From positions 1-64,000 of the forward strand of contig ML769444.1 of assembly GCA_009733575.1 (NCBI GenBank): a DNA stretch of 64,000 nt, read 5' to 3'. The DNA is from Gymnopus androsaceus JB14. Taxonomy: Eukaryota; Basidiomycota; Agaricomycetes; Agaricales; Omphalotaceae. A program made the position numbers and the translations under genes. This document shows, piece after piece, positions 8,946-12,494 of the stretch (positions are counted from its first letter, which is position 1; the number at the start of each line of letters is the position of its first letter). The notes under the pieces were generated by a model. The model was not told where the DNA came from. It saw only the letters and a program-made list of their open reading frames with translations, and made no database searches.

Positions 8946-10048
8946 ATGTCAGCGATAATAAAAGTTATCCAGTCCTTGATCAATATCTTTTGCGGTAGTT
9001 CGACGCAGACCGAGCAACAACCACAGCAACCACAGCAGCAGCAATGGTATCCACAACAGCAGCAGCAGCAACAAGCTCAATATCCTCCTCCTCAACATCA
9101 GGCCCCTCAATACCCGCAGCCACAACCGCAACCGCATCATAAACCTCATTCACCCTCGCATGGTCACAGTCCTGGACCTCATTCACCGCGTCCTGTTTGT
9201 ATTATCCTGAATCTTTTTTCCCTTTCGAATTCGTTTACTGACTTTCGGCTCTGTCGTGTATACTTAGGACCAAAACCAAGCGAACCAGCATGACTCGCAT
9301 TACATGGACCTCCGTAAACGAGCAAATGAGGAGGGAGATGCAATGGCAAGGGCTTTCCAGGAAAGCCACGAGGCATATGCTCGCGGTGACGGTGCGGGGG
9401 CCAAGGAGCTTTCGAATCAAGGCAAGGATCATCAGCGTAAGATGGAGCAGCTGAACAAGCAGGCTAGTGATTGGATTTTCGTCGGTTAGTACTTTTTTGG
9501 TATGCTCGTAGCCACTTTGTTAACTGAAATAAATGCGTGTGTAGAAAATAACAAGGTATGTAAATTATTAGGTTGGTTCTTGTATTTCATCCTAAATACA
9601 GTAATCCACAGGATAGTAATCCCGGAGAAATCGACTTGCATGGACTTTATGTCAAGGAGGCCATTGCACACACTGACGACGCCATTGAGCAAGCTAAACG
9701 CAAAGGAGACTCTGAGATTCATCTCATCGTTGGTACGTTAATGCTCCGTGTACATAAAAGTTTTACTGAGATCCGTCCGGTAGGCAAAGGTCTACACTCT
9801 CAAGGAGGGGTCGCTAAAATTAAACCAGCCATCGAGTCACTGATGCAAAAGTCAGTACATACTTAATCTTGTTTGAGAAAATAATATTGAACTTGGGTCA
9901 CAGACATCAGCTTGTTGCGGAACTCGATCCGCACAATGCAGGGGTTCTCATTGTATACCTCGGTGGAGGCGGCCGGGACAGAGCAGTCGGACCAGACGAG
10001 ATTGCTCGTCGCTTGGATCGCAATGACGAGGGATGTATCATTATGTAG
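8946..10048 (+). CDS. Smr (MutS2-related) domain protein with DUF1771 and a C-terminal CaaX-like motif
   Basis: Smr domains bind or cut nucleic acids; several eukaryotic members act on RNA or in mRNA quality control. I read six exons: 8946-9194, 9268-9484, 9545-9555 (11 nt), 9612-9733, 9784-9850 and 9904-10048. A Gln/Pro-rich N-terminus is followed by the DUF1771 helix (DLRKRANEEGDAMARAFQES and AYARGDGAGAKELSNQGK). The Smr core reads EIDLHGLYVKEAIAH, then IHLIVGKGLHSQGGVAKIKP. All junction phases agree. The protein ends DEGCIIM, a plausible CaaX box for prenylation and membrane attachment (inference). Confidence 0.9.
9010..9170 (+). repeat. CAG/CAA and CCx low-complexity tract
   Basis: A run of CAR codons (about 9016-9080) and then mixed Pro/Gln/His codons encodes the disordered N-terminus of the Smr protein. 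The opposite strand gives spurious Leu-rich and Val-rich frames. Confidence 0.85.
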
Positions 10049-10192
10049 ATGCTAAGGTTCGCTTTGACATCACACGTTCAAGGAACTGAAAGAACAACAT
10101 GGTATTATTTTAAAAGTGATACTCCAATCCACGTAGCAAGAACCTAGCTATGGTCGAATAACTTTAAAACTTTTGAAAAGAAGCATAATTGT

Positions 10193-11217
10193 TTAAATCT
10201 CGATTCCAACGAGCACAAATGCGCTGTGAACGGGGAAAGGAGGTTTGCTGACAACAGAGCCACCCACATATAAAAGAGAGTGCAATATTTCACCAAGAGA
10301 GGGCGAAGAACGTTCCAGAACAATCACGAGAGCAGAGCATTCTAGGTGATCGTCCGCAAGATCCAAAAGTGCGACAATGCTATATGATAAGAGGGATTGA
10401 ATTAACAAACACACGAGGCGCGACATATGACCATGGAAGAAGATAAGCATACCTTTCTCTGAGGCTGACGCTCTCTGCACTTTTTGCGTCGACGTAGAGC
10501 GTTCTGGGTTTGCCGGGCAGTTCGAGGACCATTCCGTCGAAAGCTGAGCCCATGTTAGGAGAAGAGATGGAAATACTCTTCGCATAAGGAAGAGCTCCAA
10601 GCCCAGTTGGGAAAAGCGTCATGAGAAAGTCCAGAGCGTCCTTTTGCTGCCTCGAGGCCGGGGAAATGCTCCGGTCACTATCACAATCGCTGCTGCCATC
10701 TGGAGTCAACGGAGGAGTGGCTATATCAGAGCCACCGCGAGCCGGGATAGGGCAAGAACTGATTGAAGATTTGGGGAAAAAATAAGAATCGAGTCTAGGT
10801 ACTTGCTGTTTGGGATATGGAGAGTAGATGGAATCGGGAGAAGAGGAAAAGGAAGTTGGCGCCGGGATGCCTGTCACACATTCCGACGACCCTCGGTCAG
10901 GAGGGCATTTGGCTTTGGGGGTGTCAAAAGCGCCACTAGAAGCAAGGATATGAGCGAAAGCAAGCGTAGAGAATATTATACTCACCCCGGGCCCGCCAGA
11001 GAAGGTAGTAGAATAATAGTACATATCGTCAGTGCCCTGCAACTGGCACACAGCAAGCACACTAGGAGTGTCGAGAGTTACAGCCCCATCTCCAACGGTT
11101 TGACGACCGTTGCTAGAAGAAGATGAGATAGAGAGAAGCGAAAGCCGAAATGAAAACCTACGCGGGGCAAAGACTAGATATTTGATTGGTTAAATTGGTA
11201 TTGGATTTCAGCGACAT
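10193..11217 (-). CDS. Ornithine decarboxylase antizyme, made by +1 ribosomal frameshifting
   Basis: Antizyme binds ornithine decarboxylase, sends it to the proteasome and limits polyamine uptake. Its own translation needs a polyamine-stimulated +1 frameshift. Exons on the minus strand are 11217-11162, 11112-10986, 10935-10453 and 10379-10193. ORF1 (MSLKSNTNLTNQ...FSGGPGWRF, 64 codons) ends at TGA 10926-10924. The +1 frame continues DTPKAKCPPDRG and reaches the conserved antizyme core: ELPGKPRTLYVDAKS, then SLRESIVALLDLADDHLE and GGSVVSKPPFP, stop at 10193. Total about 283 aa. ORF1 length matches known antizymes. A longer upstream in-frame start exists, but 11217 sits just after a likely 5'UTR intron. 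Identity is by motif, not by search. Confidence 0.9.
10890..10935 (-). other. Programmed +1 frameshift site of antizyme with downstream hairpin
   Basis: Read on the minus strand the site is TGG CGC TTT TGA CAC CCC. The ORF1 stop TGA is 10926-10924; skipping one T gives GAC ACC CCC. In animals the site is usually TGG TGC TCC TGA T, so the TGG-(T/C)GC-NNN-TGA arrangement is kept, with TTT as the shift codon. Eighteen bases after the TGA, CCCTC (10905-10901) can pair with GAGGG (10894-10890) across a 6-nt loop. The site is created by splicing: the 50-nt intron 10936-10985 ends directly before TGG. Confidence 0.85.
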
Positions 11218-11260
11218 AGGCCAACTTGATACGGGATGAAGTTTCAAAAATAAAAGAGGT

Positions 11261-11309
11261 CTGTACGAATGGTCAGAAAGGTCAAAGATTGAGAAACAAG
11301 ACGGCTCAC
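11261..11309 (-). other. Probable 5'UTR intron of the antizyme gene
   Basis: On the minus strand the segment begins GTGAGC and ends CGTACAG, 49 nt, the local intron size. Splicing it would close the longer upstream frame, which is why I prefer the start at 11217, 43 nt downstream. Confidence 0.45.
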
Positions 11310-11615
11310 TGGGAGTTTGGAGCAAAGGAGAATTGAAATTCGGCATCTTTGTCATCCGGATTTTTGTGGCAGTGTCGGCCGAATTTCCACATCGGGACAA
11401 AGATAAGTAAGTTTTCAAGACCGTCAAGACACCTCCAGTACCTCCCCGTTGATTCTGTGAGTATCTACGCCTCTACTCTGTCTGAAATGGTTCTTCAGGC
11501 ATCTATCGAGCATTTCTGACCATATTTTGCCGTTGAATTTGCTAAAAATCGATGGATTCCTCGTCTCTATCTGGATGACTTGCTGACATTGGTCTTCCAC
11601 ACAGAAACAACTAAA

Positions 11616-12494
11616 ATGGCTGACGCAGCTCCCCGTGGACGTGGTGGATTCGGACGAGGACGTGGTGATCGTGGAAGGGGCCGCAGGGGTCCTCGTCGTG
11701 GAGCTCGCAAGGACGATGAGAAGGAGTGGTACGTCGCATCGAGAATTGCTGGAAAAAATGTCGATTAATGCTATTCTAGGGTTCCCGTCACCAAAGCTCG
11801 GTCGTCTCGTAAAAGACGGTAAAATCAAGTCAATGGAGGAAATCTACCTCTTCTCTCTCCCCGTCAAGGAATACCAAATCGTCGACTTTTTCCTGCCCAA
11901 ACTCAAGGATGAAGTTATGAAAATCATGCCCGTTCAGAAACAGACTCGTGCTGGTCAGCGTACCCGTTTCAAGGCTTTCGTTGCCATCGGTGACTTTGAC
12001 GGTCACGTCGGTCTCGGTGTGAAGTGCGCAAAAGAAGTAGCGACCGCTATTCGTGGCGCTATTATCCTTGCCAAACTCTCTGTTATCCCTGTGCGAAGAG
12101 GTTACTGGGGTACTGCGCTCGGTGAACCCCACACTGTGCCGTCCAAAGTCAGTGGAAAAGTCGGTTCAGTCATGTGTAGGCTTATCCCAGCACCTCGTGG
12201 AACTGGTATCGTCGCTGCACCTGCTTCCAAGCGTCTTTTGGAGCTGGCTGGTGTCCAGGATGTATACACACAATCCAAGGGTTCGACTGCTACCATGGGT
12301 AACTTCTTAAAAGCAACCTTTGCCGCTGTAAGTGGATCGTTTCTGTTCTCTATCACTGTTCTTACCATTCGTTCTAGATCACCAAAACATACGCATTCCT
12401 GACCCCGGATCTATGGCGCGAGATCCCAGTGTCAACGCTTCCCTTCGACGAGTACAGCGCGCATCTCGCGCTTTCAAAGAAGGCGGCTCACTAG
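11616..12494 (+). CDS. rps2: 40S ribosomal protein S2 (uS5)
   Basis: This is a core small-subunit protein. Exon 1 (11616-11728) encodes the Gly/Arg-rich N-terminus ([19 protein letters not shown]), probably arginine-methylated. Introns are 11729-11779 and 12328-12377. The body matches eukaryotic S2 almost throughout: [40 protein letters not shown] and [19 protein letters not shown], ending [14 protein letters not shown]...KKAAH. Just after intron 1, WVPVTK is in one frame and LGRLV in the next (+1). Dropping one base of ACCAAAGCTC near 11793-11796 rejoins WVPVTKLGRLV. Because the gene is essential and otherwise intact, an assembly insertion is the simplest explanation. Confidence 0.95.

Follow-up and report, generated by a model that had tools for sequence, protein, structure and literature searches.

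The question raised by this locus of Gymnopus androsaceus JB14 is whether a gene interrupted by an in-frame TGA makes a full-length antizyme by shifting +1 at TTT-TGA, and whether such a shift site is out of the ordinary for a mushroom. The window analysed is a stretch of 64,000 nucleotides (positions 1 to 64,000 of contig ML769444.1, assembly GCA_009733575.1), and all coordinates refer to it. On the evidence of its sequence, the gene almost certainly encodes an Agaricomycete ornithine decarboxylase antizyme, is present in a single copy, and uses the published, class-wide UUU-UGA +1 programmed ribosomal frameshift.

Results

Structure and identity of the gene

The gene runs from 11217 to 10193 on the minus strand and consists of four exons separated by three introns of 49, 50 and 73 nt, with splice sites predicted from the DNA (Table 1). 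After splicing, frame 0 (ORF1) encodes 64 amino acids and terminates in ...MYYYSTTFSGGPGWRF-stop (GGPGWRF-stop), the TGA following directly upon TTT; over 10935-10924 the minus strand reads TGGCGCTTTTGA, which places the UUU-UGA shift site at 10929-10924. ORF2, which opens in the +1 frame at GAC as DTPKAKCPPDRG..., comprises 219 amino acids up to the TAA stop. A preliminary description of this DNA had read the junction in the same way: with intron 10985-10936 spliced out, TGG CGC TTT TGA closes frame 0 and GAC opens a +1 frame that runs into the antizyme domain, the predicted intron 2 closing with CTAG immediately before TGG. Joined, the two frames give a product of 283 amino acids from a coding sequence that is intact over 853 nt. 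In the mRNA, intron 3 lies 471 nt 3′ of the ORF1 stop (10926-10924), so that non-shifting ribosomes would terminate well ahead of that exon junction, an arrangement that might make the mRNA a target of nonsense-mediated decay.

Table 1. Elements of the antizyme gene and of its frameshift cassette, in window coordinates
Feature	Position	Strand	Remarks
Exon 1	11162..11217	-	ATG 11217-11215; N-terminus like Lentinula proteins (MSLK...NQ)
14-bp 5′ RNA stem (spliced mRNA)	11083..11168	-	Arms 11168-11162 + 11112-11106 / 11099-11092 + 11088-11083
Intron 1 (predicted), 49 nt	11113..11161	-	GTAGGT...CTCAT...CTAG
Exon 2	10986..11112	-	Remainder of 5′ stem, AV dipeptide, nascent peptide signal, GGPG
Nascent peptide signal YYYSTTFSGGP	10989..11021	-	Codons -15 to -5; position and letters as published
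Intron 2 (predicted), 50 nt, stop-free	10936..10985	-	GTGAGT...CTCAT...CTAG; TGG directly after its end
TGG CGC (module A), TTT (shift codon), TGA (ORF1 stop)	10924..10935	-	
Exon 3	10453..10935	-	ORF2 begins, +1 frame, GAC 10925-10923
AAAU and stem-loops 1 and 2	10860..10910	-	AAAU 10910-10907; stem-loop 1 10906-10889; stem-loop 2 10888-10860
Intron 3 (predicted), 73 nt	10380..10452	-	
Exon 4, antizyme core	10193..10379	-	Stop TAA 10195-10193

The fused 283-residue protein matches PF02100 over residues 189-267 (E 2.9e-11; 43.7 bits against a curated cut-off of 24.2), and a profile search with ORF1 alone returned no domain match at E up to 0.1. The locus thus has the two ORFs of an antizyme gene, with the domain in the +1 frame past the UGA, and the spliced two-frame structure together with the PF02100 match argues for the earlier reading of a basidiomycete antizyme gene that shifts +1 at TTT-TGA. 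Across the 83.3 Mb assembly (934 contigs) PF02100 is matched once and the DNA of the antizyme gene occurs once; a second copy or allele was not found there. With the fused protein as query, 570 homologues were recovered, and among the 120 listed the best matches are proteins of Lentinula species, the foremost showing 78% identity across 100% of the query. Because conservation extends to both sides of the site, in frame 0 before it and in the +1 frame after it, the two-frame arrangement is not a product of chance.

Two neighbours were seen on the plus strand. A ribosomal protein S5 family gene, which we take to be RPS2/uS5, lies at 11580-12402 (PF00333, E 3e-28; PF03719, E 5.2e-21), head-to-head with the antizyme gene; a few hundred bases separate their start regions. 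Pieces of a gene for a DUF1771-Smr protein (9304-9866; DUF1771, E 4.9e-25; Smr, E 7.2e-5, under its cut-off) stand tail-to-tail with it.

The shift site and its cassette

The shift site of the animal antizyme OAZ1 is UGC-UCC-UGA. The gene described here resembles it in the +1 shift at UGA and in having module A just before the site; it differs in that OAZ1 has UCC as its shift codon and relies on other stimulators.

The preliminary description had regarded TTT-TGA in this basidiomycete as an unusual shift site, and this part of it is not supported. Within the set of 55 assembled basidiomycete antizyme mRNAs of PMC4505036, that paper gives UUU-UGA for all 34 Agaricomycete mRNAs analysed and for one Dacrymycete; it also describes experimental tests of the Coprinopsis cinerea frameshift signal and reports polyamine-responsive frameshifting on its cassette. 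TTT-TGA is therefore the rule for Agaricomycetes, and the system found here is one that has already been described and studied by experiment in this class of fungi. The peptide-signal finding, with UUU as shift codon, is restated in a review (PMC5009743). The Ganoderma lucidum antizyme GlAZ likewise has two ORFs, and its cDNA carries a TTTGA shift, an AV dipeptide and YYYSTTFSGG (PMC9604110). One listed homologue, P0057 from G. lucidum, shares the GGPGWRFD junction with the gene here and is probably the GlAZ cloned in that study; GlAZ is the longer protein, at 333 residues in PMC9604110 and 332 in P0057, against 283 here.

Each element of the C. cinerea cassette (PMC4505036) has a counterpart in this gene: beside UUU-UGA, the Ala-Val dipeptide, here within LAVCQL of ORF1, the nascent peptide signal, published as codons -15 to -5, and GGG at codon -4 followed by UGG-CGN. 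The third G of codon -4, with the UGG CGC that follows, makes up the 7 nt of module A. The E-site codon is CGC here and CGU in C. cinerea, and its third position is the one that varies most (PMC4505036). In the C. cinerea experiments as reported there, which used two systems, frameshifting fell 9- and 13-fold when the peptide signal was deleted and 18- and 26-fold when it was placed out of frame. Frameshifting was little affected by 11 synonymous changes in the signal and dropped strongly once module A had been exchanged for its complement. Among the 120 listed homologues the peptide signal is present in 93-94 (94 with the pattern YYYST[TA][FL]S[GS]GP[GE], 93 with another).

The two flanking RNA structures were judged by folding alone. 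The end of the 5′ stem lies 103 nt 5′ of TTT, and folded by itself the stem has a predicted energy of -22.2 kcal/mol (z -3.8; 2 of 200 shuffles as good), or -24.1 kcal/mol in context (61-nt stretch; 2 of 500 shuffles as good). The published stem has 14 bp and at least 30 kcal/mol and lies about 106 nt 5′ in C. cinerea (PMC4505036); length and distance agree, but the energy predicted here is the weaker and falls short of 30. Downstream, AAAU and two adjoining stem-loops lie about 19 nt 3′, as in the C. cinerea cassette (PMC4505036), the first with a 6-bp stem and the second following without a gap and closing on a 7-nt loop, GUGACAG; the likeness is one of loop length, and shuffling gives it moderate support (predicted -21.1 kcal/mol, z -2.6; 3 of 200 shuffles as good). 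In four longer stretches 16, 27, 52 and 76 of 300 shuffles folded as well, so folding by itself argues only weakly for the 3′ structure. An Rfam scan of 10100-11400 gave no matches at E up to 1.

Introns within the cassette

Two of the introns interrupt cassette elements. Intron 1 cuts the 5′ arm of the 14-bp stem in half, leaving 7 nt in exon 1 and 7 nt in exon 2. Module A is divided too, its first G lying before intron 2 and UGGCGC after it. A continuous stem and a contiguous module A thus arise by splicing, which supports the splice sites chosen; a fold of the unspliced RNA still has the inner 7-bp hairpin and some of the outer pairs of the stem.

Introns of the fungal relatives had to be deduced from protein models. 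Among the 94 signal-bearing proteins of the 120 listed, GP[GE] is followed by V in 65 and by W in 4. The signal is bridged to GxFD in 32 of the 120 listed models, in P0111 with no inserted residue, and the inserts begin with V in 27 and with VS, VR or VC in 25, as expected from a GT donor after GGPG in those genomes. These patterns suggest that the position of intron 2 is shared among relatives. The main text of PMC4505036 makes no mention of introns, PMC9604110 shows one Ganoderma gene model with a GT-AG intron, and a limited literature search found no earlier report of an intron inside module A or the 5′ stem, nor, judged by titles and abstract openings, a relevant paper on intron retention in antizyme frameshifting.

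Can the frames be joined without a shift?

Intron 2 is stop-free and its 50 nt are of the form 3n+2, so that an unspliced message would read ORF1 into ORF2 without any shift. The preliminary description had named splicing of this intron as the observation that would refute the shift, which inverts the logic: splicing creates the need for a shift, and it is retention that would join the frames. If the working mRNA kept this segment, or if the gene had no intron there, translation would pass directly through ...GGPGVSIIFSTLAFAHILASSGAFDTPK..., a possibility we consider very improbable. Apart from the fusing length and open frame of the segment itself, it can draw on intron-sized inserts (implied 50-80 nt) that 7 models among the 120 listed homologues contain, for example Armillaria P0017, a count that is a lower bound on retention-fusible homologues and neither shows nor excludes an excess. 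The segment nonetheless carries GTGAGT, CTCAT and CTAG, which are good splice signals, and its retention would break module A after the first G and move the rest of it away from the peptide signal. Nor does its open frame call for a special explanation, since the neutral chance of a stop-free, frame-fusing intron is 0.15-0.22: shuffled introns with the same ends and composition are stop-free in 66%, which with one third for length gives 0.22, and uniform codons give 0.15.

Proteins from metagenomes also speak against retention. Ten are found among the 120 listed of the 570 homologues; 8 of them read the +1 frame across a spliced junction (RSLAGPG-GAFD, for example; P0085 was assigned by eye), the other 2 have their start downstream, and a fused protein is not among them; the query behind them was the fused protein. 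A query with the spliced +1 frame, which favours that form, brought 7 more, of which 6 are spliced and the other is P0128. Their short contigs, being spliced, would be transcripts; an intronless gene would look identical. P0128, which resembles Lentinula proteins and is encoded on a contig of 5,347 nt, has 18 +1-frame residues between GPG and GAFD; its implied intron of 54 nt is a multiple of 3, and retention there would lead back to frame 0 and its stop. Judged by the +1-frame residues, this implied intron would begin GTC. GTC is an uncommon splice donor.

That regulated retention of intron 2 makes a second, frameshift-independent full-length antizyme in G. androsaceus is also very improbable; if it were true, antizyme output would be set by splicing as well as by polyamine-driven recoding.

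The reading in which ORF1 and ORF2 are joined by a +1 shift has further to be set against splice variants in which the shift site is bypassed, such as one from a donor at 10981 to an acceptor at 10913 or 10892. The scanned stretch offers 20 GT..AG pairs (35-120 nt) whose removal keeps the fused frame open, in some cases only because intron 2 stays in as well, and 63 of the 120 listed homologue models do join ORF1 downstream of the shift site, with a GGPGVRSS-type join recurring in several species and GGPGV-KCPPDR as another. An automatic gene caller has to introduce joins of this kind to get round the in-frame TGA, and the joins differ between species; UUU-UGA is present in all Agaricomycete mRNAs of the published alignment (PMC4505036), and a shift-skipping join is absent from the 8 informative metagenomic proteins in the list of 120. 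That the protein is made by such splicing is thus extremely improbable. The difficulty for gene callers, which the preliminary description had foreseen, is plain in the same 120 models: an explicit-shift junction (GGPGWRF-D) appears in one, P0057; 12 represent a +1-frame reading of ORF2 (11 assigned by pattern, P0085 by eye); P0020 and P0028 begin downstream; and in the remaining 105 ORF1 and ORF2 are connected differently (63 + 32 assigned by pattern, 10 by eye). Recoding at UUU-UGA explains why these 105 join the frames by other splices.

A TGA introduced erroneously during sequencing or assembly, or a decayed copy of the gene, is a negligible possibility: no evidence for either was found in the one assembly examined, it is the +1 frame and not frame 0 that is conserved past the stop, the gene's 853 nt of coding sequence are intact, and relatives have the same two-frame arrangement.

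Discussion

Gene structure, the two frames, homology and the presence of counterparts to the published cassette elements are established here from the DNA, and together they suggest how the gene would be expressed. Ribosomes translating ORF1 would arrive at its end with YYYSTTFSGGP in the exit tunnel, where the peptide, module A and the 3′ stem-loops, in step with the polyamine level, may raise the chance of a +1 slip. By slipping on UUU_U at the UGA stop, a ribosome would continue into ORF2 and produce full-length antizyme, which would in turn lower ornithine decarboxylase and polyamine uptake. By analogy with the C. cinerea experiments (PMC4505036), the peptide and module A are expected to stimulate the shift in this species and the shift to respond to polyamines, and we infer that the protein functions as an antizyme in G. 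androsaceus.

With this locus, a further mushroom genome would carry a recoding signal that is already well characterised, and the introns predicted inside module A and the 5′ stem would be a small addition to a known system.
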